Below, one piece after another: positions 2,415-20,748 of a stretch of 20,748 nucleotides of DNA. The translations under genes were made by a program, and so were the position numbers. The notes beneath the pieces were generated by a model, which was given only the letters and a program-made list of their open reading frames with translations, had not been told where the DNA came from and did no database searches. Within the stretch, counting starts at the first letter, position 1. Each line of letters begins with the position of its first letter. Source of the stretch: Bordetella parapertussis (lineage in GTDB: Bacteria; Pseudomonadota; Gammaproteobacteria; Burkholderiales; Burkholderiaceae_C); assembly GCA_945882755.1 (NCBI GenBank), contig CAMCWS010000129.1, positions 1 to 20,748 of the forward strand. The letters run 5' to 3'.

Positions 2415-3116
2415 ATGAAGATTTTGAGCATACTGCCATGGGCCGATTGGCTGGTCTTGGTGTTTTTTGGGCTGGTATGGATTGGCTATGCCCAATTTGC
2501 CAGCCGCTGGTCGCTCAAGCGTCCCTCTATCTTGGCCGCCACCAACCGTTTTCGACTGCGCTGGATCAAGGTGTCTTTGTCACGCGACCCAAGGGTGCTT
2601 GACGGCATCATCACCCAGACCTTGTCGAACACACCGGCGTTTTTTTCGTCCACCACCATACTGATCATGGGCGGTTTGCTTGCCCTCATGGGAACCACCG
2701 ACAAAGCCGCCGAGTTGGTGCGGGAAATTCCTTTTTCTCAGGCCACCCCTATCTTGGTGTTTGAGTTCAAGATCTTGGTCTTGATCGCCATTTTTGTGTA
2801 TGCCTTTTTCCGCTTTTCATGGTCGATGCGGCAATACACATTTGTGGCTCTGATGATCGGTGCACTGCCTTCACCCGAGTTTTTTGCGTCGCAACCTGAC
2901 AAGGAAGACGATTACGCCCAACGCGTGTCCGCCATGACAGGGCTGGCAGCTGAAACCTTCAACGACGGCTTGAGGGCCTATTACTTTTCGTTTGCGGTGA
3001 TGGGTTGGTTTTTCTCACCCATGGCGTTTGTGCTGACCACCTTATTGATCGTGGCGATTTTGTACAACCGCGAATTCCGCTCGGATGTGCTGGGTGTGCT
3101 CAACGACGGCAATTAA
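2415..3116 (+). CDS. DUF599 family inner-membrane protein
   Basis: This 233-residue integral membrane protein has about four hydrophobic segments: residues 6-28 (PWADWLVLVFFGLVWIGYAQ), 76-92 (FFSSTTILIMGGLLALMG), 112-132 (LVFEFKILVLIAIFVYAFF) and about 190-222. The arrangement and motifs (WIGYAQFASR, SRDPRVLDGIITQTL, AFFSSTTILIMGG, YAFFRFSWSMRQY) are those of DUF599 as I recall the family. Its function is unknown. It follows the terminator at 2390, has only a weak ribosome-binding site, and is convergent with bioB 47 nt downstream, so it is probably a single-gene unit. Confidence 0.9.
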   Translation: MKILSILPWADWLVLVFFGLVWIGYAQFASRWSLKRPSILAATNRFRLRWIKVSLSRDPRVLDGIITQTLSNTPAFFSSTTILIMGGLLALMGTTDKAAELVREIPFSQATPILVFEFKILVLIAIFVYAFFRFSWSMRQYTFVALMIGALPSPEFFASQPDKEDDYAQRVSAMTGLAAETFNDGLRAYYFSFAVMGWFFSPMAFVLTTLLIVAILYNREFRSDVLGVLNDGN

Positions 3117-3163
3117 GAGAAATTCAGGCTCAAGACAGAAGCGCTGAATGCCATGGCGTTTCT

Positions 3164-4168
3164 TTAGGTGGTTGAAATGCCCAACTTACCCAGCAAGGCC
3201 TGATCCTTTTGCCAATCTGGGTTGCCTGTGGTGAGCAATTTATCGCCATAAAAAATGGAATTGGCGCCTGCCATGAAACACAAGGCTTGTATGGCTTCAC
3301 CCATTTGCTGACGCCCAGCCGACAAACGCACACGGGCTTTAGGCATGGTGATGCGAGCTACTGCAACAGTGCGAACGAACTCCAGCAAATCAAGGGATTC
3401 GGTGCCGTGTAACGGTGTTCCTTCAACTTGAACCAAGTTGTTGATAGGCACGGATTCAGGGTAGGGCGTCAAGTTGGCGAGTTGGTGGACCAACCCAGCT
3501 CGCTGTTCGCGGCTTTCGCCCATGCCAACAATGCCACCGCTGCAGACATTCATGCCTGCCGAACGTACATGGGCCAGCGTATCAAGACGTTCTTGGTAAT
3601 CCCGCGTGGTGATGATGTCGCCATACAACTCTGGCGTGGTGTCCAGGTTGTGGTTGTAATAGTCCAAACCAGCTTGTTTTAACGTGCCAGCTTGGGATTC
3701 AGTCAGCATGCCCAGCGTGCAGCAGGCTTCCATGCCCAGCGATTTGACGGTGCGAACCAGTTCGGCGACTTTTTCTACATCACGGTCTTTGGGTTCACGC
3801 CAGGCCGCACCCATGCAAAAACGGCTTGCGCCATTCTTTTGGGCTTCTAGCGCAGCGGCTTTGACATCTTCCACATCCAGCAATTTGGAGGCTTCAACAC
3901 CCGTGTTGTAGTGAACAGACTGGGGGCAGTAGCCGCAGTCTTCAGGGCAGCCGCCGGTTTTGATGGACAAAAGTGTGGAGAGTTGGACTTCGTTGGGATT
4001 GAAATGTTCGCGGTGAACTTGTTGCGCCTTGAACATCAAGTCGCTGAAGGGTAAATTGAACAATGCTTCAATCGACTGTCGACTCCACGCTTCAACAGAA
4101 TTTTCTGAGGGCTTCGCAGGCTTGAGGAAATGAAGAGTCTGTACTTGCTGAGTCACTGCAGTAGGCAT
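3164..4168 (-). CDS. bioB: Biotin synthase BioB
   Basis: This radical-SAM enzyme inserts sulfur into dethiobiotin, the last step of biotin synthesis. The radical-SAM cysteine triad is Cys74, Cys78 and Cys81 in [13 protein letters not shown]. Further family blocks follow: FCMGAAW and EACCTLGML (Cys ligands of the second, 2Fe-2S cluster), [23 protein letters not shown] and [10 protein letters not shown] (the Arg cluster ligand), then [18 protein letters not shown] start at ATG 4168 (MPTAVTQQ, 334 residues). An in-frame ATG at 4210 would add 14 residues (MLLYSQHS...) that do not look like the family and would run into the divergent promoter. The protein lacks the long C-terminal tail of E. coli BioB. 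It is transcribed away from bioA across a short shared gap, suggesting common control. Confidence 0.97.
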
Positions 4169-4240
4169 AATTGAGAATAGATAGACTGAATGTTGTGAAT
4201 ATAGCAACAAAAAATTTTACGTATCTACAAGAGGTTTAAT
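4169..4240. promoter_or_regulatory. bioB/bioA divergent promoter region with inverted repeat
   Basis: A 72-bp AT-rich gap separates the bioB start from the proposed bioA start and must hold both promoters. At its centre is TGTTG-N9-CAACA (4191-4209), a perfect 5-bp inverted repeat with the outline TTGT...ACAA, reminiscent of half-sites used by biotin repressors (BirA: TTGTAAACC-N-GGTTTACAA). The match is only to the outer bases, so the regulator is a guess. AGAGG at 4230-4234 is the likely bioA ribosome site. I could not fix the -10/-35 elements. Confidence 0.45.
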
Positions 4241-5578
4241 CTGAGTACGCTTTCTTCGCAATTGGTGCAACGCAGCTTGCACAGTGTCTGGCATCCATGT
4301 ACACAAATGCAACACCACGAGACGGTGCCCTTGGTGGCCGTTCAACGCGGCAGCGGTCCTTGGCTTTATGACCACGATGGCAACCGTTACCTCGACGCCA
4401 TCAGTTCTTGGTGGGTCAACCTGTTTGGCCACGCCAACCCCCGCATCAACGATGCATTAAAACAGCAGCTCGACACCTTGGAACATGCCATGCTCGCCGG
4501 CTTCACCCATGAGCCTGTGGTGTTGTTGTCCGAGAAGCTCTCGGCCTTAACTGACGGGGCATTGGGACATTGTTTTTATGCGTCAGACGGCTCTTCTGCG
4601 GTAGAGATTGCCCTCAAGATGAGTTTCCATAGTTGGCGCAACCAAGGCCTTGGCAGCAAACATGAGTTTGTGTGTTTGAAAGGTGGTTATCACGGTGAAA
4701 CAGTGGGTGCGCTGGGTGTGACCGATGTGCCTATCTTTCGCGACGCCTATGACGCATTGCTAAAGCCTGCTCACACCCTCATGTCGCCCGATGCCAGGCA
4801 GTCCATCGAGGGAGAGTCCGCAGACCAAGTGGCGCTGCGTGCGGCCAAAGAACTTGAGACCCTGCTTCTAGAGCGGGCCGCGCACATCAGTGCCGTCATC
4901 ATTGAGCCCTTGGTGCAATGCGCCGGTGGCATGGCCATGCACAGCCCTGTTTATATCCAGGAGATTCGACGCTTGTGTACCGCCTTCAATGTGCATTTCA
5001 TCGCTGATGAAATTGCGGTGGGCTGTGGTCGAACTGGCCGTTTTTTTGCTTGCCAGCATGCGGCTGTGTGGCCTGATTTTTTATGTTTGTCCAAAGGCAT
5101 CAGCGGAGGGTATTTGCCCTTGTCATTGGTCATGACACGCAACGATGTCTATGCTTCTTTTTACAGCGACAGCATAGCGCGTGGCTTCTTGCATTCGCAT
5201 TCCTACACGGGTAACCCACTGGCTTGTCGTGCTGCTTTGGCTACCCTGGAAATTTTCGAGCAAGACGATGTGCTTGCTCAAAACCGAGTGCTCGCAAAAC
5301 GTATCAGCAACGAACTTGCACCCTTGGCCGCCCATGAGAAAGTTGGTCACTTTCGCCAGCAAGGCATGGTGTGGGCTTTCGATGCGAAGGTTGAAGACAC
5401 AAAGCTTGCTGCCACTTTCTCGCGACGCTTCTTTGCCAGCGCTTTGAAGCATGAGTTGCTGGTGCGACCAATCGGTACAACTGTGTATGTGATGCCGCCC
5501 TATGTATTGAGCGATTCAGACGCTGGTTTTTTGGCCGAGCGTTTGCAAACCGTTTTTGATGAAGTCATCCGCGCATGA
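4241..5578 (+). CDS. bioA: Adenosylmethionine--8-amino-7-oxononanoate aminotransferase BioA
   Basis: This PLP-dependent class III aminotransferase converts KAPA to DAPA with SAM as amino donor. Family blocks: SVWHPCTQM near the N-terminus, ISSWWVNLFGHANPRI, the PLP phosphate site ASDGSSAVEIALKM, GGYHGETVGALG, ADEIAVGCGRTGRFFACQ (the PLP-binding Asp) and CLSKGISGGYLPLS with the Schiff-base Lys. No ATG lies near the expected N-terminus. The TTG at 4262 and GTG at 4265 have no ribosome site and would leave almost no residues before the QRSLHSVWHP motif. A CTG at 4241 has AGAGG six nt upstream and gives a normal N-terminus (LSTLSSQLVQRS), so I take it as the start (445 residues). The stop overlaps the bioF ATG (ATGA), implying translational coupling. 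Product certain; start codon inferred. Confidence 0.96.
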   Translation: MSTLSSQLVQRSLHSVWHPCTQMQHHETVPLVAVQRGSGPWLYDHDGNRYLDAISSWWVNLFGHANPRINDALKQQLDTLEHAMLAGFTHEPVVLLSEKLSALTDGALGHCFYASDGSSAVEIALKMSFHSWRNQGLGSKHEFVCLKGGYHGETVGALGVTDVPIFRDAYDALLKPAHTLMSPDARQSIEGESADQVALRAAKELETLLLERAAHISAVIIEPLVQCAGGMAMHSPVYIQEIRRLCTAFNVHFIADEIAVGCGRTGRFFACQHAAVWPDFLCLSKGISGGYLPLSLVMTRNDVYASFYSDSIARGFLHSHSYTGNPLACRAALATLEIFEQDDVLAQNRVLAKRISNELAPLAAHEKVGHFRQQGMVWAFDAKVEDTKLAATFSRRFFASALKHELLVRPIGTTVYVMPPYVLSDSDAGFLAERLQTVFDEVIRA

Positions 5579-6768
5579 TCTTTTCTGAACTGGATGTATT
5601 GGCATCCAAACTGTCGGCGTTGGAGAAGCAAGGCTTGCGTCGGGAAAGGCGTACTGTGGAGTCCGTCTCGCTAGGGCACATGGTGGTGGACAGCAAACGG
5701 CTACTGACCTTCAACAGCAATGATTACTTGGGTTTGGCCTCACATCCACAGGTGGTGGAAGCCATCAAGGAGGGCGCATCTTTGTATGGCGCGGGCAGCG
5801 GTGCATCGCATTTGATCAGTGGCCATTCACAAGCACATGATCGACTAGAAGAATTGCTGGCCACATTTTTTTTGTCTCATCTGCCATCTGCCAGAGCACT
5901 GTATTTCAGCAGCGGTTATATGGCGAACTTGGGTGTGCTGACCGCATTGGCCGGCACAGCCTCAGGCGACATCAGCTTTTTTTCGGATCAATTGAATCAC
6001 GCATCATTGATTGACGGCATACGCCTCACCCGTGAACCTTTCCAAATTTATAACCACGCCGATATCGCTGATTTATCGCTGAAACTGTCTGCGTGTGAAA
6101 GCGGCACCAAGGTGGTGGTGACGGATGGGGTGTTCAGCATGGATGGCGATATCGCACCACTGCCAGAACTACTTCGCTTGTGCGAGCAACACGGCGCATG
6201 GTTGCTGGTGGATGATGCACATGGTTTTGGTGTTTTAGGCGAAACCGGCGCTGGTGTGTTGGAGCATTTCAATTTAAGTTCCCCGCAATTGATCTACATG
6301 GGCACCCTTGGCAAAGCTGCTGGCGTGTCTGGTGCGTTTGTTGCCGCGCATGAACACTTCATTGAATGGTTGGTTCAACGATCACGTCCCTATATTTACA
6401 CCACGGCGGCAGTTCCAGCACTGGCGTATGCGCTGTTGACCAGCCTGCGCATCATTCGCGGCGAAGAGGGCCAAAGACGACGATTGCATTTGTCATCATT
6501 GATTCAGCAACTGTCGACGGCGCCAGTTCCTGCGTCTTGGAAGCGCTTGGATTCAATAACGCCGATTCAACCCATGGTGTTGGGCAGCAATGCGCAGGTT
6601 CTGAAGGCCTCTGCAGAATTGAATCAGCAAGGTATTTGGATCAGCGCGATCCGTGCGCCAACTGTCCCCGTCAATACCGCCAGATTGCGAATCACCTTGT
6701 CGGCCGCTCATACCTCGCAAGACGTTGACCAATTGGTACAGGCCATTTCGAGTACTGCTCAATCATGA
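5575..6768 (+). CDS. bioF: 8-amino-7-oxononanoate synthase BioF
   Basis: This 397-residue alpha-oxoamine synthase condenses pimeloyl-ACP (or CoA) with L-alanine to give KAPA, the first step of biotin ring assembly. Visible motifs are FNSNDYLGLASHP, GAGSGASHLISGHSQAHDRLE (start of the family signature), YFSSGYMANLG, FFSDQLNHASLIDGIR, TDGVFSMDGDIAPL, VDDAHGFGVLGETGAG (Asp213 and His216 contact PLP) and GTLGKAAG with Lys247 as the Schiff base. The length is a little over the usual 385 or so. The ATG at 5575 overlaps the bioA stop by 4 nt and the stop at 6768 overlaps the bioD ATG by 4 nt, so the three genes form one translationally coupled operon. Confidence 0.97.
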   Translation: MIFSELDVLASKLSALEKQGLRRERRTVESVSLGHMVVDSKRLLTFNSNDYLGLASHPQVVEAIKEGASLYGAGSGASHLISGHSQAHDRLEELLATFFLSHLPSARALYFSSGYMANLGVLTALAGTASGDISFFSDQLNHASLIDGIRLTREPFQIYNHADIADLSLKLSACESGTKVVVTDGVFSMDGDIAPLPELLRLCEQHGAWLLVDDAHGFGVLGETGAGVLEHFNLSSPQLIYMGTLGKAAGVSGAFVAAHEHFIEWLVQRSRPYIYTTAAVPALAYALLTSLRIIRGEEGQRRRLHLSSLIQQLSTAPVPASWKRLDSITPIQPMVLGSNAQVLKASAELNQQGIWISAIRAPTVPVNTARLRITLSAAHTSQDVDQLVQAISSTAQS

Positions 6769-7454
6769 ATCAATCATTGCCTCAGCATCCATTTTCCTGT
6801 TTTGTCACTGGTACCGACACGGAGATCGGCAAGACCTTGGTGGCGTCTGCGTTGGTGTACCTTCAGGCGCAACGTGGCCATCGTGTGGCTGCAATGAAGC
6901 CTGTGGCTGCCGGTACCGAGTTACGCAATGGGCGCTGGTGTAATGAGGATGTGGACCATCTTGCAGCATGCGTTTCTGTCTCACTGCCTCAGCAGATGAC
7001 CACGCCTTATTTATTCAAAGCAGCTGCAGCGCCACATATCGCTGCAAGTTTGGAAAACAGGGGGATAGAACGCTCACACCTACTGAGTTGTTATGAGCAG
7101 GTCAAGGCGCAAGCAGATGCCTTGGTGGTCGAAGGTGTTGGTGGGTTTTGCGTTCCATTGAATGACAGCTATGACACTGCAGACATGGCCAACGATATGA
7201 ACTTGCCAGTGGTGCTGGTGGTTGGAATGCGTTTGGGTTGCATCAATCAAGCCTTGTTGACTTCCGAAGCGATTGCCTCAAGAGGCTTAAATCTCATGGG
7301 GTGGGTGGCCAACAGCGTAGATAAGCACATGTTGTATGCGCACGAGAATATCGAAGCCATTGCGCAAAGAATCAATGCACCGTTATTGGGGTCCATTCCC
7401 CGGTTGGAAGTGGCCAATGCATCCTCAGCAGCGACTTTTTTTCTTAAACCATGA
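6765..7454 (+). CDS. bioD: Dethiobiotin synthetase BioD
   Basis: This ATP-dependent carboxylase closes the ureido ring of DAPA to make dethiobiotin. The 229-residue protein begins with the P-loop GTDTEIGKT (residues 16-24, Lys23), followed by MKPVAAGT with the catalytic Lys45, then APHIAASLE and the VVEGVGGFCVPLND block, all standard for BioD. The C-terminal part includes GLNLMGWVANSVD and LLGSIPRL. The start ATG overlaps the bioF stop (ATGA). A small membrane-protein gene begins 9 nt after the stop, so the operon probably continues. Confidence 0.96.
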   Translation: MNQSLPQHPFSCFVTGTDTEIGKTLVASALVYLQAQRGHRVAAMKPVAAGTELRNGRWCNEDVDHLAACVSVSLPQQMTTPYLFKAAAAPHIAASLENRGIERSHLLSCYEQVKAQADALVVEGVGGFCVPLNDSYDTADMANDMNLPVVLVVGMRLGCINQALLTSEAIASRGLNLMGWVANSVDKHMLYAHENIEAIAQRINAPLLGSIPRLEVANASSAATFFLKP

Positions 7455-8115: not shown

Positions 8116-8898
8116 TCAATGATCGGCTTGAGGTGGTATTTTCTTGAGTGTCTCTTTATGCAAAGGTGATAAATCTGGGTTCACCCCTCGGCGCTCATCA
8201 AACACAAAGCAGTTGCCGCTGTAATGGGCGCTGCCCACCTCTTCAAAGTATTTGAGAATGCCGCCTTCTAACTGGTAGACCGTCTCCAAACCCTGTTCCC
8301 GTAAGTAAATCGCCGCTTTTTCGCAGCGTATGCCGCCGGTGCAAAAGCTCACCACGGTTTTACCCTGCAAGTTGTCCAAGTGCTGGTTGGCAGCGGCGGG
8401 AAACTCGCTGAACTTCTCGATGCGCCAGTCCACTGCTCCCACAAAACTGCCTTCGTCCACCTCGAAAGCATTGCGGGTGTCCAGCGTCACCACTGGGCGG
8501 CCTTGGTCATCATGGCCATCGTCCAGCCAGCGCTTCAAGGTGGCTGCTGCCACCGCTGGGGCACGGCCGGTTTGCGGCTGAATTGCGGGGTGATTCATGC
8601 GGATGATTTCATTTTTCACCTTCACCAGCAGTTTGCGAAAGGGTTGGGTGGCCGACCAGCTTTCTTTCGGTGTGACGCTGGCTAAGCGGGGGTCTTGCTG
8701 CAACCAAGACACAAAGTCCCGCACCGCTTGAGCAGGACCCGCCAAAAACAGGTTGATGCCTTCCTCGGCGATCAACACTGTGCCTTTCAGGGAATGTGCG
8801 CTGGCTTGTGCATGGCAAGCCTCGCGCAAAGCCGCTGTGTCGCTGATTTCAGTGAACAGGTAGGCCGAAATATTTAAGACGGGTAGCGCAGGGTTCAC
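8116..8898 (-). CDS. trhO: tRNA uridine(34) hydroxylase TrhO (rhodanese-domain, YceA family)
   Basis: TrhO makes 5-hydroxyuridine at the wobble position of certain tRNAs using oxygen. The protein has the N-terminal acylphosphatase-like half (LNISAYLF..., [16 protein letters not shown]) and a C-terminal rhodanese domain with [20 protein letters not shown] and the active loop [12 protein letters not shown] (Cys186), then [17 protein letters not shown] choose the GTG at 8898: its last bases overlap the otnI stop (GTGA) and GAGG lies 5 nt before it. A TTG at 8913 is possible but adds five non-family residues. The length of 260 residues is normal for short proteobacterial versions. It sits inside the otn operon with no evident metabolic link. 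Confidence 0.93.
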
Positions 8899-9776
8899 CG
8901 CTTCCTCATCCAACCCAAGCCTGCCGAGGTGCCTGATGCACCCAGTGCGGGGCGGTATTCACAGCCCACCCAGCCTTGCCAATGGTTGGCTGCGATGACT
9001 TCTTCCATCACTTTGAACACAGTGTCGTAGTGCAATTCACCGGTATCGGGTTCGTGGCGCTGGGGCACACCTGCGATTTGGAAATGCCCCACTTGGCCCG
9101 TGGGCAGGTAGTGGCGGATTTTTTTCTCCACATCGCCTTCAACGATTTGGCAGTGGTAAAGATCGAACTGCACCTTCAGGTTGGGCATGCCCACCTCTTT
9201 GACGATCGCGTGGGCGTCGTCTTGGCGGTTCAAAAAGAAATGCGGGATGTCGCGGGTGTTGATGGGTTCAATCAGCACATCGCGCCCTGCGCTGGCAGCC
9301 TGCTCGCAGGCCCAACGCAGGTTGCTGATGTAGGTATCGCGCAAAAGGCCAGGGGTTCGGGCATAGATGCTGCTGGTGCTCAGTTCTGGCGGCAATGCAC
9401 TTGCCACCCGTAACTCTGGGGGAACCAAACCGGCCATCACATGGATGCGTGGGCAGTTCATGACCTCGGCATATTCCAAAGCGGTTAAAAAACCGCTGCG
9501 AAACTCGGCCTCATGACCTGGCAAGCAGGTGGTGCCCCGCACCCCTTGTTCCCAAGCGTGTGACATGCTGGCGCGGTCGCTGCCGCCGGGCGGGGCGTTA
9601 AACAGCACTTGTTGCAAGCCGTTGTCCTTCAGTGCCTTGGCTAAATCGTGCGATCCAAATTCGTAGGGAAACAAATACTCGACGCCTTTGAAACCATCGT
9701 GAGCGGCTGCCGCAAAGCGTTCGAGAAAAGCAACATCGTTATACAAAAAAGACAGGTTGGCAGCAAAGTGCAGCAT
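8895..9776 (-). CDS. otnI: 2-oxo-tetronate isomerase OtnI (hydroxypyruvate isomerase family)
   Basis: This TIM-barrel sugar-isomerase-like protein is predicted to convert 2-oxo-tetronate to 3-oxo-tetronate. The N-terminus [21 protein letters not shown] is classic for the family. Metal and catalytic residues visible are Glu170 ([15 protein letters not shown]), Asp205 (VQFDLYHCQ), His231/Gln233 ([17 protein letters not shown]) and Glu273 (GCEYRP). At 293 residues it is some 30 longer than the usual 260: extra residues lie after FNAPPG (about 65-80) and after VPPELR (about 122-142). ATG 9776 has GGAG a few nt upstream, and a longer in-frame extension to 9860 overlaps otnC and is not family-like. 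Assignment to OtnI rather than Hyi comes from its place beside otnK and otnC. Confidence 0.9.
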
Positions 9777-9790
9777 GGGGGCTCCGAGGG

Positions 9791-10477
9791 TTACCAGTGG
9801 GCGCCAAAGGTTTGGCGTAATTCGTCTATCTGCGCGTTGCTCAAAGCGAAAGCAGGGCACAGCAGCTGCAAGCGGGCAGTTTCTTCTAATTCTTCCAGTG
9901 TGGCCATGGCTTGCGCTGGTGTGTCGTGCCAGACATTGGGCCCCAGCCGCGAGAGCATGACTGAGTGCAGGGGCAGGTCTTGCTCTGCATAGCGATGTAT
10001 GGTGCTGGCCACCACTTTGGCAACTTCGGGGTCGCCGGGGCGGTGGTAGTCGACCAAGGGCACATGACCTACCTTCATCACAAAATAGGGTGTGATGGGC
10101 GGCAGCAACTCTGCGCCAAGCGGCGAGGGTAAGGGCTTATCGCGTAGGCTTAAAGCCACCAAGTGCGTGCTGTGGGTGTGGATGACGCAACGGGTAAGGG
10201 GCGATAAACCTTGCGCCGCAACGTAAATGGCTTGGTGCAGCGACAAGGTTTTGCTAGCCCGCTGGCCACTGCGTTGGGTGCCATTAGCGTCCACAAAAGC
10301 AAGTTCTTCAGGTTGTAAAAAACCCAAGCAAGCGTCGGTGGGTGTGATGAGAAATCCATCGTCCAAGCGAACGCTGATATTGCCTGCGCTGGCATGCACA
10401 TAGCCCCGCGCAAACAGGCTGGCGCCAATGCGGCAGATTTCTTCGCGAACAGCAGCGTTATCTGTAGAGAAGTTCAT
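9791..10477 (-). CDS. otnC: 3-oxo-tetronate 4-phosphate decarboxylase OtnC (class II aldolase/adducin family)
   Basis: The predicted role is cleavage and decarboxylation of 3-oxo-tetronate 4-phosphate to dihydroxyacetone phosphate. The 228-residue protein has the class II aldolase layout: [14 protein letters not shown] (about 26-38), [13 protein letters not shown], the metal motif [13 protein letters not shown] (His100, His102), [17 protein letters not shown] and [11 protein letters not shown]. Two canonical positions differ. The Glu normally found in the PS[SK]E block is replaced (SKTLSLH), and the third zinc His of the usual NHG motif is Leu (SRLGPNVW). This may define a subgroup, so the exact activity is less sure. 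ATG 10477 follows the otnK stop by 8 nt; a longer in-frame start at 10675 lies inside otnK. Confidence 0.88.
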
Positions 10478-10485
10478 GGCTGCAA

Positions 10486-11790
10486 TTAAAGCACTGGGCC
10501 GTGCAAGTTTTGAAAGGCCTTGGTGAAAAAGTCCGAGGTGCCAAAGTTGCCAGACTTTAAAGTCAGGTGCAAACCCGAGGCTGGGGCCGAGGGGCTGTGG
10601 GCGTGGCACCAAGGCACCCCTGGGTCGATTTGCGAACCGATGTGCATTTGGGTCACCTGCAAAGCCTGCACGCAAGCCCCCGAGGTTTCACCACCTGCCA
10701 CCACCATTTGACCCACACCCATCGCCACCAAGCCTTGGGCAATGTGCGCCAAGACCTGCTCCATGAGTTCGCCAGCCTGAGCTTGGCCGAGTTGGGCTTG
10801 AACCGCCTTTACTTGCTGTGCATCAGCAGTGGAATACACCAACACCGGCCCGATCGGCAGATGTTTTGCAGCCCATTGCAATACGGGTGCGGCAAGTTCG
10901 GCCACGGAGGTATGGGTGGCCCACTTCAAAGGATCGATTTGCCAAGCTTGATGGGGGTGGTGTTGCAAGAAATGCGCAACCTGCCCTTGGGTAGCCAAGG
11001 AACAACTGCCGCTGACAATGGCTTTCAAACCCATCGCAGGGGGCAGTTGCGCACTTGCGGCAGAAGGGGCGATGCCCCAGTTGGCGGGCAAAGCGATGGC
11101 CACACCCGAACCTGCCGTAAGCAAACGCATGTCTTTCAGCGCGGGCCCAAGCTTGTATAAATCGTCATTCGACAGTGCATCCACCACCGCGATGGATACG
11201 CCTTGGTCTTGTAATTCAGCAACACGTGCGGTGACAGCAGCAGCACCCAGTGCTACGGTCTTAAAGTCAATCAAACCCACTTTGCGTTTGCACTGCGCTT
11301 GCAACACATTCACCAAATTGGCGTCGCGCATGGGGGTGAGAGGGTGGTTTTTCATGCCACTGTCGCTCAGCAACACGTCGCCCACAAACAAATGGCCTTT
11401 GAACACCGTGCGTTGGTTGTCGGGGAAAGCAGGGGTGGCGATGGTGAACGGGCAGTTCAGTGCGTCCATCAGCGCCTCGGTAACGGGGCCAATATTGCCG
11501 CGAACATCGCCGCTGTACCAGCTGTCAAAAGTCGAGCAGTATTTGAAATACACCTGCTGAACATGCTGAGCTTGCAACCATGCCAAAGCTTCAAGCGACT
11601 GCTTCACAGCATCAGCGGGGGCAATGGTGCGGGATTTCAGCGCTACCACCACTGCATGGCAATCGGCGGGCAGGGCCTGGGTGGGAACACCAATGGTCTG
11701 CACCACCCGCATACCTGCACGAACCAAGTTATTGGCTAAATCGGTGGCACCTGTGAAATCGTCGGCAATGCAACCCAGCAGCAAGCTCAT
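10486..11790 (-). CDS. otnK: 3-oxo-tetronate kinase OtnK (DUF1537 four-carbon acid sugar kinase)
   Basis: This ATP-dependent kinase phosphorylates oxo-tetronates derived from threonate or erythronate. The N-terminus MSLLLGCIADDFTGATDLAN is the family hallmark (substrate side), followed by YFKYCSTFDS, GNIGPVTEALM and ATPAFPDNQRTVFKGHLFV. The C-terminal nucleotide domain shows IVSGSCSLATQGQ, VVAGGETSGAC and LTLKSGNFGTSDFF. The family motif I remember as FDSTxxGNIGP here reads FDS-WYSGDVR-GNIGP, about four extra residues near the substrate site. It is the first gene of a tight minus-strand operon (otnK, otnC, otnI, trhO, hypothetical). The start has no Shine-Dalgarno; a short open frame ends 3 nt before it. 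Confidence 0.93.
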   Translation of the reverse strand: MSLLLGCIADDFTGATDLANNLVRAGMRVVQTIGVPTQALPADCHAVVVALKSRTIAPADAVKQSLEALAWLQAQHVQQVYFKYCSTFDSWYSGDVRGNIGPVTEALMDALNCPFTIATPAFPDNQRTVFKGHLFVGDVLLSDSGMKNHPLTPMRDANLVNVLQAQCKRKVGLIDFKTVALGAAAVTARVAELQDQGVSIAVVDALSNDDLYKLGPALKDMRLLTAGSGVAIALPANWGIAPSAASAQLPPAMGLKAIVSGSCSLATQGQVAHFLQHHPHQAWQIDPLKWATHTSVAELAAPVLQWAAKHLPIGPVLVYSTADAQQVKAVQAQLGQAQAGELMEQVLAHIAQGLVAMGVGQMVVAGGETSGACVQALQVTQMHIGSQIDPGVPWCHAHSPSAPASGLHLTLKSGNFGTSDFFTKAFQNLHGPVL

Positions 11791-15567: not shown

Positions 15568-18500
15568 TTGAATAAATTTAACCTTAATATGACGAACTCA
15601 GTAATCAATCTTGGCGCTTATGGCAAATTAATTTTGCCAGTGCAGGTTGATGGTGACCGTTGGTTTTACTACTGGGATGTTAACGGCGATGGACAAGCAA
15701 CTGCAGCAGACAAAACAACGCATATTTATCTAGATTCTTTATTTAAACAAAATGCCGATGGGACATTTAACCCTGGAAGTTTTACAACTAATACATACCG
15801 TTATGCATCTTTAAATGGGGAATTAGTTGCATTGCCAACAATGGGACAAGCCTCGTTCAGCGTATCTAATTTGGCAAGTCAAACTTCAGTTTCTGGGGCA
15901 GCACTCAATAACACTTATGATGATTATTTAGCAATATATGATGGATATTCTTTACCACCAGGCTGGGTAGGGCCACATTTTTGGACATCAAGCCCATATG
16001 GAACTTCCCCAACTACATTAACTTTGAGCGACGGCTACAAAGGAGCTGGTTCAGGTGCACTAGAATTTAATGTGGCCTTGGAATATTTGGGGTCGATTCC
16101 TGCTGTTTCATTCGCAACTACTTCGGGTTCTGCGAATGAAGGCAACAGCGGAAATCAAACTGTCAACGTCACTGCCAATTTAAGTAGTCCAGCAATAACG
16201 GCAGTGACGGTGCCGATAATGCTTAGTGGCACAGCTACGAAGGAAGTAAACGGCGAAGAAGACGATTATTGGGGATACTCTAATCAAATGTATTCCATCA
16301 ACATACCGTTAGGTGGGTTGATGGGATCTGCCACTTTCAGTGTGCAGGGCGATAACAAAGTTGAATCAAACGAAACGGTGATACTTACAATGGGAGCACC
16401 CGTAGGTGCGACCCTAGGAGCAAACACCAGTTACACCCATACTATTACAAATGATGATCCAACAATTTCATTTGCCGCAACTACTGGTTCTGCGAATGAA
16501 AGTAACAGCGGCACCCAAACTGTCTACGTCAGTGCCAACTTAAGCAGTGCAACAACTTCAGTTGTAACGGTTCCAATTACCTACAGCGGGACAGCAACTT
16601 CAGGCTCGGACTACAGCGCAGCAACGACTTCGATCACGATAGCTGCAGGGGCTACAACTGGGACGGCGAGTTTCTCGGTAGTTGGAGATACCGCTTTAGA
16701 GTCCAATGAGACGGTAGTGCTAACAATGGGTACACCTACAGGCGTAACGCTTGGAGCCAACACCAGTTACACCCACACTATTACAAATGATGATGGGGTA
16801 ATTGATCTTGGCGCTGGGGTAATTGATCTTGGCTCTTATGGTAAGTTAATTCTGCCGGTACAGGCTGATGGTGACCGTTGGTTTTACTACTGGGATGTTA
16901 ATGGCGATGGACAAGCAACTGAGGCAGACAAAACAACCCATATTTATCTAGATTCTTTATTTAAACAAAGTGCCGATGGGACATTTAACCCTGGAAGCTT
17001 TACAACCAATACATACCGTTATGCATCTTTAAATGGGGAATTAGTTGCATTGCCAACGATGGGACAAGCCTCGTTCAGCGTATCTAACAGGGCAAATCAA
17101 ACTTCAGTTTCTGGGGCAGCACTCAACAGTACTTATGATGATTATTTGGCAATATATGATGGATATTCTTTACCAACAGGATGGGTAGGGCCACATTTTT
17201 GGACATCAAGCCCATATGGAACTTCCCCAACTACATTAACTTTGAGCGACGGCTACAAAGGAGCTGGTTCAGGTGCACTGGAATTTAATGTGGCCTTAGA
17301 ATATTTAGGGCAACCCCTCCCTTCTTTATTCTTCTCAAAAATTTCAGGGTCAGCAAATGAAGGTAGCAGCAGCAGTGAAACCGTAAATATCACAGTCAAT
17401 TTAAATCGTGCAACAACTGTAGATATCACAGTTCCAATTACTTACAGCGGAACTGCAACACCGAACACCGACTACAGTGAATTAACGACATCCTTAACGA
17501 TAGCTGCAGGTAATACATCTGGCTTGCTAAATTTTAAAGTTATAGGCGACTCTACTGGAGAGCCTGATGAAACTTTAGTGCTTAAAATGGGGACGCCGGT
17601 CAATGCTGGTTTAGACAGTGGTCTCAATACTTACACTCATACTATTATTAATGATGATCTTCCTGAAATTAATATCTCTCATGGCGGTAGAACCTCTTCT
17701 GAAAATAGCTTTTCTTATTGGTATGACCAGTATGTTAATTTAAATTTATCCAGCCCATCAATTTATGATATATTAATCCCGATTGAATATTTAGGAACTG
17801 CGTCTACCACCCAGTCCTTCGGGGTAGATTATATAATCAAAAAAACAGGGTCTGGATCATCGATTTCAGATTCGGTAAATTACATTAAAATACCAGCGGG
17901 AAATACAAGCGGATATATTAATTACACAATTACTCCTGAAGATGTTTTCGAAACTGATGAGACATTAATTATTTCTTTGGGTGAGCCTACGAATGCACAA
18001 CTAGGTTCGAAATCTACATTTATCCATACCATCCAAAATGATGATAATTGGGCAAAACCGTATGTTGGATTTTATGGCTCAACTGAAAATAATTCAAATG
18101 AGGGTAATACAGGAACGACCGATTTCATAATTACTGCATTTGTTTACGGACTTGAGAATAATCGGCCTGATTTAAGCGGAATTGATATAAGTATTCCAAT
18201 TTCTATTGGTGGTAATGCCACTCTAGGAAATGATTTTAGTGTTGTAGGAGATAGTATTTTTATTCCTGCCGGTTCAAGATTTGGTACTTTTGAATTTAGC
18301 GTTCTTGGCGACAGCACTGTAGAGTCCAATGAGACGGTAGTGCTTACGATGGGGACACCCACTGGCGCAACGCTTGGAGCCAACACCAGTTACACCCACA
18401 CCATTACAAATGATGATATCCCCACCATTTCCTTTGCCACAACCACTAGTGCGGCAAATGAAGGTAACAGTGGCAACCAAATTGTCAATGTCACAGCCAA

Positions 18501-20610
18501 TTTAAGCAGTGCAACAACGGCAGCAGTCACGGTGCCGATTACTTACAGCGGCACGGCAACTTCTGGCACGGACTACACCAATACCCCAACATCAATCACG
18601 ATAGCGGTTGGGGCTACAACTGGAACAGCGAGTTTCTCGGTAGTTGGAGATACTGCTTTAGAGACAAATGAGACGGTGGTGCTTACGATGGGTACGCCTA
18701 CAGGCGCAACGCTTGGAGCCAACACCAGTTACACCCACGCCATCACAAATGATGATGTCCCCACCATCTCCTTTGCCACAACTACTAGTGCGGCAAATGA
18801 AGGTAACAGTGGTAACCAAACTGTCAATGTCACAGCTAATTTAAGCAGTGCTGCAACGGCAGCAGTCACAGTACCGATCACTTACAGTGGTACTGCAACT
18901 TCAGGCTCGGACTACATCGGAGCTACGAATTTAATAACTATAGCGGCGGGGTCTACAACTGGGACTGCGAGTTTCTCGGTAGTTGGAGATACCGCTTTAG
19001 AGTCGAATGAGACAGTAGTGCTAACAATGGGTACACCTACAGGCGCAACAGTTGGATCCAACACTTTTTATACGTACACGATAACAAATGATGAAGTAGT
19101 GATTGGTATAAACGCAACCAATTCTTCGGTTTATGAAAATGGCTCACTCAATACTATTTACACATTTACCCGAACAGGAGATTTAAGCGCACCACTTAGC
19201 GTGAACTTTGCGGTTAGCGGAACGGCACACAGTTCTGATTACACGAGTTCACTCAATGTTTTTTCCGAACCAAATAAGGTTTGGACAAAATTGTTGGGAA
19301 CAACCGCTGTTGAAAGTGCAGATGCACTTGCAATTGGGTCAGATGGTTCAATTTATGTAGCAGGAAAGACTGCTGGAAACCTTGATGGTCAAGTCTCTTG
19401 GAATAATGGCTCTTACGATTACTTCGTATCAAAATTTCTGACTGATGGAACCAAAACATGGACTAATGTCCTGGGATCGTCATCAAATGACAAAATAAAT
19501 TCTTTAGCTGTTGCTGCCGATGGTCATATATATGTTACCGGAGAAACACTAGGCAATTTAGATAACAGGGTCAGTTTTGGGCAATCTGATGGATTTTTAA
19601 TTAGGTACCTATCTGACGGTACTAAAGAGTATGGCACAGCACTTTTCGGTTCAAATGCTTCTGACTTTGCTTATGCTATCAGCTCGGCATCCGATGGTGC
19701 TTTATATTTAAGCGGATCAACTAATGGCTGGTTATTTGGGCAACCCCATAGCGGCGGTGGAGATGCTTTTGTTATCAAGTACCTTCCAGACTTGAGTAGG
19801 TCTTGGACTAAAGTGATTGGATCGAATGCTAAAGACGAAGCACGTGCTCTCACAATGGGCTCTGATGGTTCGATCTTTGTAGGGGGAATCACTCAAGGAA
19901 ATTTTGACGGACAAACTAATAGTGGTGGCTACGATGCTTTCATCACCAAATATCTACCCGATGGAACAAAAGCATGGACAAATTTGCTCGGCTCAGTGAG
20001 TAATGACCAAGCCTATGCAATGACAACTGGTATTGATGGATCAATATATATCAGTGGAGGCACAGAAGGAAACTTAGGCGGTCAAACGAATAGTGGTCTT
20101 TATGATGTTTTTGTTGCTAAATATTCAACAGATGGCAATCTAGATTGGGCTAGATTACTGGGTAGTCGTGCTGATGATATTTCTTATGCCATAACTGCAG
20201 GTCTTGATGGCTCTATTTATGTAGGTGGTAAGACATGGAGTACTGATTTCGATGGCCAGATAAGTTTAGGTGGTGGCTATGACGCATTCATCACCAAATT
20301 TCTTCCTGATGGAACAAAGGCTTGGAGTACTGTTTTATCGTCTGACGCATCTGACGAAATTAGGGCACTAAGCATTGGCTTGGATGGATCGTTATATGCC
20401 AGTGGAGAAACAACTGGACACCTAGAAGGCCAAACCAATAGTGGTGGCAGCGATGCCTTCATTATCAAATACCAAGTAACACCTCAAATCATCTTTGCTG
20501 CAGGTTCAGCAACAGCGACTTTAGTAATTGATCCTACTGCAGATAATTTAATTGAAGGAAAAGAAACAGTTGTAGTCACCTTAGCCGAAGGTGTCGGTTA
20601 TTGGAGTTGA
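15568..20610 (+). CDS. Giant Calx-beta / beta-propeller surface protein, truncated by an insertion sequence
   Basis: This 1680-residue acidic repeat protein has the order: module A1 (12-175); two Calx-beta domains (about 178-297, 298-409); module A2 (418-581), differing from A1 at only 9 of 164 residues; five Calx-beta domains (about 582-698, 699-826, 827-951, 952-1063, 1064-1176), most ending in T-I-T-N-D-D; then an eighth Calx-beta split by seven SBBP-type propeller blades of about 57 residues (1238-1636). Each A module carries a calcium loop DVNGDGQATxAD (37-48, 443-454). Calx-beta domains bind Ca2+, so a secreted or cell-surface adhesin is the best guess. No signal peptide is present, which fits type I secretion, but no RTX repeats or export signal remain. 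The start is uncertain: TTG 15568 or ATG 15589, neither with a good ribosome site. The stop TGA is the first three bases of the IS. Confidence 0.88.
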   Translation: MNKFNLNMTNSVINLGAYGKLILPVQVDGDRWFYYWDVNGDGQATAADKTTHIYLDSLFKQNADGTFNPGSFTTNTYRYASLNGELVALPTMGQASFSVSNLASQTSVSGAALNNTYDDYLAIYDGYSLPPGWVGPHFWTSSPYGTSPTTLTLSDGYKGAGSGALEFNVALEYLGSIPAVSFATTSGSANEGNSGNQTVNVTANLSSPAITAVTVPIMLSGTATKEVNGEEDDYWGYSNQMYSINIPLGGLMGSATFSVQGDNKVESNETVILTMGAPVGATLGANTSYTHTITNDDPTISFAATTGSANESNSGTQTVYVSANLSSATTSVVTVPITYSGTATSGSDYSAATTSITIAAGATTGTASFSVVGDTALESNETVVLTMGTPTGVTLGANTSYTHTITNDDGVIDLGAGVIDLGSYGKLILPVQADGDRWFYYWDVNGDGQATEADKTTHIYLDSLFKQSADGTFNPGSFTTNTYRYASLNGELVALPTMGQASFSVSNRANQTSVSGAALNSTYDDYLAIYDGYSLPTGWVGPHFWTSSPYGTSPTTLTLSDGYKGAGSGALEFNVALEYLGQPLPSLFFSKISGSANEGSSSSETVNITVNLNRATTVDITVPITYSGTATPNTDYSELTTSLTIAAGNTSGLLNFKVIGDSTGEPDETLVLKMGTPVNAGLDSGLNTYTHTIINDDLPEINISHGGRTSSENSFSYWYDQYVNLNLSSPSIYDILIPIEYLGTASTTQSFGVDYIIKKTGSGSSISDSVNYIKIPAGNTSGYINYTITPEDVFETDETLIISLGEPTNAQLGSKSTFIHTIQNDDNWAKPYVGFYGSTENNSNEGNTGTTDFIITAFVYGLENNRPDLSGIDISIPISIGGNATLGNDFSVVGDSIFIPAGSRFGTFEFSVLGDSTVESNETVVLTMGTPTGATLGANTSYTHTITNDDIPTISFATTTSAANEGNSGNQIVNVTANLSSATTAAVTVPITYSGTATSGTDYTNTPTSITIAVGATTGTASFSVVGDTALETNETVVLTMGTPTGATLGANTSYTHAITNDDVPTISFATTTSAANEGNSGNQTVNVTANLSSAATAAVTVPITYSGTATSGSDYIGATNLITIAAGSTTGTASFSVVGDTALESNETVVLTMGTPTGATVGSNTFYTYTITNDEVVIGINATNSSVYENGSLNTIYTFTRTGDLSAPLSVNFAVSGTAHSSDYTSSLNVFSEPNKVWTKLLGTTAVESADALAIGSDGSIYVAGKTAGNLDGQVSWNNGSYDYFVSKFLTDGTKTWTNVLGSSSNDKINSLAVAADGHIYVTGETLGNLDNRVSFGQSDGFLIRYLSDGTKEYGTALFGSNASDFAYAISSASDGALYLSGSTNGWLFGQPHSGGGDAFVIKYLPDLSRSWTKVIGSNAKDEARALTMGSDGSIFVGGITQGNFDGQTNSGGYDAFITKYLPDGTKAWTNLLGSVSNDQAYAMTTGIDGSIYISGGTEGNLGGQTNSGLYDVFVAKYSTDGNLDWARLLGSRADDISYAITAGLDGSIYVGGKTWSTDFDGQISLGGGYDAFITKFLPDGTKAWSTVLSSDASDEIRALSIGLDGSLYASGETTGHLEGQTNSGGSDAFIIKYQVTPQIIFAAGSATATLVIDPTADNLIEGKETVVVTLAEGVGYWS
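15601..16092 (+). repeat. Module A, copy 1 (492-bp direct repeat)
   Basis: This encodes residues 12-175 of the giant protein. It is repeated at 16819-17310 with the same length, no indels and only scattered base changes. The module has DGDRWFYYWDVNGDG, an ALPTMGQ turn and a GPHFWTSSPYG segment. I recall similar unnamed modules (W-Y-x-W-D-x-N-G-D-G ... LPT) in cadherin-like or VCBS-type giant proteins. Confidence 0.9.
16795..16836 (+). repeat. 21-bp tandem duplication before module A copy 2
   Basis: GGGGTAATTGATCTTGGCGCT (16795-16815) is followed by an almost identical unit (16816-16836, last bases TCT), encoding GVIDLGA-GVIDLGS. It marks the left joint of the second A module. Confidence 0.8.
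16819..17310 (+). repeat. Module A, copy 2 (492-bp direct repeat)
   Basis: This encodes residues 418-581. Compared with copy 1 there are 9 amino-acid changes in 164, and the calcium loop (443-454) is kept. The high DNA identity points to recent duplication or ongoing gene conversion. Confidence 0.9.
18298..19095 (+). repeat. Near-identical Calx-beta coding repeats
   Basis: The ends of Calx-beta 5, 6 and 7, and of Calx-beta 2 at about 16660-16794, share long stretches of almost identical DNA encoding FSVVGDTALESNETVVLTMG and GANTSYTHTITNDD. The less similar domains 3 and 4 (17311-18045) lie between, so the similar copies are not simply neighbours. Confidence 0.8.
19279..20475 (+). other. Seven-bladed SBBP-type beta-propeller segment
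   Basis: Seven consecutive repeats of about 57 residues follow the pattern W-T-x-x-L-G-S ... A-x-x-x-x-D-G-S-I-Y-V-x-G-x-T-x-G-N-L-x-G-Q ... Y-D-A-F-I-x-K-Y-x-x-D-G-T-K. This is the SBBP (beta-propeller repeat) type, and seven units make a closed propeller. It is flanked by two halves of a Calx-beta domain (NFAVSGTAHSSDYT before, IIFAAGSATATLVIDPTADN after). Confidence 0.85.
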
Positions 20611-20748
20611 CCCTGTAACTCAGTACCACCGGCAGTTTTAATTTGCCGATCGTTTCTCTCGAAACATCTGTGGCGGCAAATATCCCAATGCGCTGTGCGG
20701 ATGGTAAGAATTGTAGTCATCGAACCATGCCTTCAATTGGCTCATCAC
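20608..20748 (-). mobile_element. IS3-family insertion sequence, one end only
   Basis: The element's end is placed at TGACCCTGTAACTCAG (from 20608), where the Calx-beta reading is abruptly lost; IS3-family elements begin with 5'-TG. A transposase C-terminus lies 27 nt inside. The rest of the element, and any target-site duplication, are outside the window. Confidence 0.75.
20638..20748 (-). CDS. IS3-family transposase (OrfB), C-terminal part
   Basis: The minus frame enters from the right edge and ends at TAA (20640-20638). The 36 visible residues include WFDDYNSYHPHSALGYLPP and MFREKRSAN. The block W-x-x-x-Y-N-x-x-H-P-H-S-A-L-G-Y-x-P-P is the well-known C-terminal signature of IS3-type DDE (rve) integrase-like transposases. 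The catalytic residues lie outside the window. Confidence 0.92.
   Translation of the reverse strand: MMSQLKAWFDDYNSYHPHSALGYLPPQMFREKRSAN

Follow-up and report, generated by a model that had tools for sequence, protein, structure and literature searches.

A seven-bladed SBBP propeller apparently nested within a Calx-beta domain, in a gene cut by a putative IS3-type element

Results

A single Calx-beta domain in a large repeat protein is, as read from its sequence, split after its 'SDYT' loop by a complete seven-bladed SBBP propeller, after which the second half of the domain resumes. The architecture is real and recurrent, and is a combination of known kinds of domain. Overall, the data are in our judgement probably best explained by an exchangeable propeller nested on an in-line Calx-beta frame, in a copy that has here been broken by an IS element. 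The nesting had been proposed in a preliminary description of this DNA, and it is borne out by flanks that match complementary halves of a profile, by recurrence at one site, and by empty and scarred copies in the same lineage.

The gene lies at 15568..20610 (+ strand) of the window, by which we mean the whole stretch of DNA analysed, 20748 bases in length. It encodes 1680 amino acids from a TTG start; translation of P0002, the window's own protein of 1673 aa, instead begins at an in-frame ATG, residue 8 at nt 15589. Over the entire 1680-aa protein Pfam Calx-beta (PF03160) scores 129.8 bits, and a profile built from uninterrupted domains locates seven uninterrupted copies, at residues 189-297, 309-409, 596-697, 723-826, 844-950, 963-1063 and 1076-1176, the last of which (18793..19095, + strand; columns 1-101, 121.6 bits) is the complete domain preceding the nested one. 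The same ORF holds a 165-residue domain twice, at residues 12-176 (15601-16095) and 418-582 (16819-17313), with 462 of 495 bases identical, for which no Pfam family scored above its cut-off. Elsewhere the window carries biotin synthesis genes (3164-7454), with bioB on the - strand diverging from bioA, bioF and bioD on the + strand, and at 8895-11790 (- strand) genes for a 2-oxo-tetronate isomerase, a 3-oxo-tetronate 4-phosphate decarboxylase (below its cut-off) and a 3-oxo-tetronate kinase.

The N-terminal half of the split domain occupies 19096..19251 (+ strand; residues 1177-1228) and the C-terminal half 20479..20601 (+ strand; residues 1638-1678). With the profile from uninterrupted domains the N flank matches over residues 1190-1228 (17.4 bits, columns 5-44 of 101) and the C flank from residue 1636 (33.3 bits, columns 43-85). 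The cut is bordered by the strings earlier singled out as flanking it, the motif 'SDYT' on one side and the strand 'FAAGSATATL' on the other. The Calx-beta model search that had been proposed gave a divided answer: both halves are matched by our profile, and both fall below the gathering score of 27 for Pfam PF03160, which gave no match to the N flank alone and 13.6 and 14.4 bits for the C flank, the 14.4-bit match covering profile positions 59-96. Unlike an ordinary PF03160 domain, this one carries an insert of about 400 residues and is here without its last strand. Predicted strands lie at the expected Calx-beta places in two models, which give the placement of strands and not their pairing; in the window model they fall at residues 1178-1183, 1196-1203, 1210-1218 and 1225-1227 of the N half and 1640-1643, 1649-1656 and 1668-1674 of the C half, and the last strand, absent in the window copy, is present in that of an intact relative. 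The pLDDT of the flanks in the window model is about 59-79 on the N side and 53-82 on the C side. A fold search with the model returned no Calx-beta structures, the list being filled by the propeller with rows that mostly span model residues 45-469, so that this result excludes nothing. The proposal that the flanks would form one sandwich rests on homology, on the placement of strands and on the confidence scores of the two models.

The seven SBBP blades are present at residues 1239-1637 (19282..20478, + strand), and the Pfam SBBP model (PF06739), a search that the preliminary description had also called for, scores 54.6 bits on the insert against a cut-off of 20.5. A linker at 19252..19281 (+ strand; residues 1229-1238) leads from the Calx-beta half to the propeller, whose blades of 53-59 residues start at nt 19282, 19459, 19630, 19804, 19975, 20146 and 20323 (+ strand; residues 1239, 1298, 1355, 1413, 1470, 1527 and 1586). 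Each follows a pattern of a W-T-x-x-L-G strand, an A-strand, a 'DGSIYV' strand and a 'DAFITKY' strand, with a turn, 'PDGTKA', leading into the next W strand. This inter-strand turn is present in blades 1-6 and absent from the last, and as the array opens with a W strand and closes with a 'DAFIIKY' strand, the repeat pattern implies that the last blade has to take the first W strand as its own. Velcro closure of this kind is a known feature of propellers. The N-terminal strand VWTKLLG would close the last blade and leave both ends of the propeller adjacent, where a hairpin turn would be, and two short linkers would join these ends to a single loop of the Calx-beta sandwich. Among nested modules the N-side linker measures 1-25 residues by profile boundaries and the C-side linker a few; adjacent ends and linkers this short would explain how an entire propeller fits into a single loop.

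The gene does not naturally end where the ORF does, a feature absent from the preliminary description. The gene is truncated by an IS3-type element, the end of which fills the window from 20602 to 20748 (- strand), with the last 36 aa and stop codon of a transposase at 20638..20748 (- strand; Pfam rve_3, 35.6 bits, cut-off 26.5). Short-read contigs often end in repeats, and the window, which is a whole contig, terminates inside this one. Copies of the element at two unrelated loci match from exactly 20602 (98% and 73% identity) and a third matches from 20607 (77%), and similarity stops at those boundaries. The rve_3 match and the sharp end starting with TG agree with the IS3 family, a label that is our own reading of the transposase and the end. 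The codon of Tyr1678 ends at 20601, and residues 1679-1680 and the stop ('WS*') are encoded by the element. Because the element takes over from 20602, the Calx-beta match in the window ends at column 85, while other nested copies in the same profile comparison reach column 99 or 100. An element interrupting the gene just after 'GVGY' would have removed the last Calx-beta strand and anything downstream, and the window copy probably lacks this strand and whatever followed. In the genus of G389 the element end was matched in three of 61 genomes, and it had no match in the plasmid collection or in a set of eight genomes.

Recurrence was assessed in a pool of 174 proteins (the best 120 of 608 and all 64 of a second set, after removal of overlap and of P0002), together with 278 locus ORFs of more than 300 residues from the best 78 loci, and the window. 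Arrays of at least five blades numbered 209. A propeller beside a complete Calx-beta domain, the layout that had been raised against nesting, does occur elsewhere, with a complete domain on one or both sides of 51 arrays; the array of the window is among the 26 of 209, in 23 sequences, that are flanked by a Calx-beta half on each side (23 seven-bladed and three six-bladed by the blade profile). It thus lies within another domain, unlike ordinary SBBP (PF06739) propellers, which in the arrays seen are mostly free-standing or tandem. Two further arrays (P0115 and L006), both starting at the beginning of their sequence, have only a C-half, one, in the flagellin P0073, has a weak N-half only, and 129 have no Calx-beta nearby. 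Long blade arrays also occur in P0032, a 1711-aa SBBP propeller protein whose eukaryote source is labelled Ochromonas danica.

A scan allowing any split point, with cut-offs of our own choosing (8 bits, halves meeting within 12 columns) and a profile from the same protein set, found 29 interrupted Calx-beta domains in 25 sequences, the window included, all split at columns 40-49 by inserts of 334-428 residues; uninterrupted domains in the set numbered 634. The blade profile missed four of these 29 inserts (the second copy of P0035, P0159, P0162 and P0163), whose starts look like those of a divergent propeller. P0066 failed the filter of the split scan and is nested by the array scan, so that the two scans together give 30 modules in 26 sequences. 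The carriers that have a name are metagenome-assembled genomes, with the labels Polaromonas for L001, Comamonas for L005, Burkholderiales or beta proteobacteria for L002 and L004, and Rhodobacteraceae for L003. Among sampled genomes the nested module is rare: the full junction was found in one of 399 genomes of the family of G001, namely G001 itself, the centre of the sample. In the genus of G389, the nested-module protein gave no more than a propeller-type match, in one of 61 genomes, and an intact orthologue of the window gene was therefore not found there. The contig of the intact relative L001 ends inside the gene, so that neither the complete C-terminus nor secretion genes are seen in it. 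Standard annotation reported an interrupted Calx-beta in none of seven relatives scanned, six of which carry one by our profile test, the seventh (P0073) having the propeller only. As nesting hides the Calx-beta domain from standard annotation, such modules are probably under-counted.

The frames and the propellers gave different histories. The frame tree was built from the 29 interrupted frames, their two halves joined by script, and the 70 best-matching of 619 uninterrupted domains (at most two per protein). It is based on 120 columns and leaves many forks unresolved; in it, the 29 frames and four uninterrupted domains are set apart from the other 66 by a branch with 99% SH-aLRT support. The best match of a frame is a frame in another sequence in 27 of 29 cases, and the remaining two are closest to the empty-site copy at 726 of L006. 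Uninterrupted homologues, for which the preliminary description had proposed a search, are represented by these four domains of the same lineage, in which the same loop is closed; they occur in L004, L006 and P0159, sequences that also hold filled or half-seen copies. P0159 has all three states, empty at 265-355, scarred at 2337-2449 and filled at 2741-3229. Its scar reads '...SNGPLEKSWSRLVG FVTEFSPSSLPTVTF...', the first and last strands of a propeller, as in P0162 and P0163, with nothing between them. We read this as an apparent in-frame loss of the propeller, and it may also be a misassembly of a repeat gene.

The propeller tree held 90 rows, of which the 60 non-nested comprised 25 picked for Calx-beta neighbours (or P0073) and 35 taken at random, and showed 17 changes between nested and non-nested state across all rows. 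When 22 nested propellers were held together against 54 others, their descent from one origin was rejected (AU p 1.3e-5); 14 rows with long branches or other oddities, 8 of them nested and 6 not, had been omitted from this test. The propeller tree is thus at odds with one insertion passed on by plain descent; blade exchange within genes, or long branches, could be the source of the conflict.

Discussion

Interrupted frames that form one group while the propellers fall into several suggest a fixed socket with exchanged propellers, in which one lineage of Calx-beta frames would keep the site and the propellers within it would be lost and replaced. The fuller proposal is that the Calx-beta frame is a socket of single lineage with one fixed loop, that propellers of different branches have been swapped, lost and regained in it, and that the same cassette also sits on flagellins. 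We put this forward tentatively, as an idea that more probably fails than holds in this full form. Two flagellins carry the nested module in their variable middle, P0113 at 291-788 between flagellin domains 5-142 and 986-1070, and P0090 at 470-971 between 5-142 and 1144-1228; in the flagellin P0073 a propeller alone occupies the variable middle, at 325-718. The words 'propeller' and 'calx' are absent from the main text of a paper on flagellin diversity (PMC7018530).

In the proposed arrangement, the sandwich would keep its place in line among Calx-beta and Ig-like domains and hold the propeller out sideways, the row of domains acting as a calcium-stiffened stalk and the propeller as the exchangeable part that would contact a ligand or surface. 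Ligand binding, calcium stiffening and the role of a secreted adhesin are here inferred by analogy. An RTX or Bap-type adhesin secreted by a type 1 system would have RTX repeats and a C-terminal secretion signal; the relatives P0036 and P0056 carry HemolysinCabind repeats, and the window gene is cut before its end. The propeller might instead have no part in ligand binding and serve the stalk as a bulky, rigid spacer or as a strut on its side. We regard this as unlikely, while noting that no ligand site has been identified, that SBBP propellers occur in many unrelated large proteins, and that calcium sites bridging the blades, a stabilising feature, are given weight in the CylK paper (PMC8916777). 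Propellers from different branches on the same frame fit turnover of a contact surface better than they fit a strut, and the module is also found in the middle of flagellins.

It is very improbable that the flanks are two separate Calx-beta remnants left by recombination among tandem repeats. Tandem layouts of Calx-beta and propeller do exist, in the 51 arrays described above, and Pfam fails to recognise the flanks; against this, all 29 interrupted copies share the place of the split and have complementary halves, uninterrupted copies of the lineage close the same loop, and the scarred copy leaves the frame intact.

Slightly less credible still is a nested module that is a CylK-like enzyme, with Calx-beta in place of the calcium-binding cap. 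CylK (PDB 7fh6, 7fh7, 7fh8, 7ron, 7roo) is the only solved sequence relative by phmmer (E up to 1) and by far the best fold match, and it shares the seven-bladed fold. Its description gives it an N-terminal beta-roll cap, a catalytic site between cap and propeller, an Arg105 that comes from the calcium-binding beta-roll domain, and calcium sites that bridge blades (PMC8916777). In the alignment Tyr473 of CylK corresponds to Tyr1455 of the window and Asp440 to Glu1424, a position at which the relative BrtB also has Glu. Tyr1455 occupies a common repeat position of the blades, however, Leu438 and Phe499 are replaced by Lys1422 and Gln1481, and Pfam at E up to 1 found no beta-roll or RTX repeats in the window ORF that could supply Arg105. 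Unlike in CylK, the partner of the window propeller is a Calx-beta sandwich around the insert, one half of which precedes it. The scaffold is thus shared, and by these comparisons the module is not a CylK. Membership of the LipL53 family of SBBP lipoproteins (NF047494) was likewise rejected, at 153.6 bits over residues 1233-1558 against a curated cut-off of 400.

The window protein resembles BapP of Pseudoalteromonas tunicata in joining Calx-beta repeats and a beta-propeller in a large protein. BapP is described as a large calcium-dependent biofilm adhesin whose propeller is N-terminal, predicted to be five-bladed and regarded as unique by its authors (PMC12153261); as described there it is not nested, in contrast to the propeller of the window, which lies in a Calx-beta domain. 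A literature search found no paper joining Calx-beta, beta-propeller and SBBP, a result that does not prove the nesting to be new to the literature, and the main text of a 2026 survey of domain insertion is without 'calx' or 'propeller' (PMC13114784). Chance or an artefact of assembly, suggested by a whole contig that ends in a repeat element and by the tendency of repeat genes to assemble badly, can be dismissed, as the ORF is open across both junctions, the same junctions occur in independent copies in other records, and the 30 inserts are pairwise less than 85% identical except in two pairs (P0036/P0072 and P0162/P0163).

Calx-beta domains are usually regarded as passive stalk units. Here a Calx-beta domain is the host of an insertion at a fixed site that is found filled, empty or scarred, and how an entire domain is gained and lost can therefore be tested directly. 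If the frame is indeed a socket for exchanged propellers, bacteria would be able to change a display head while leaving the stalk untouched, and if the cassette is mounted on flagellins, a filament would carry thousands of propellers.
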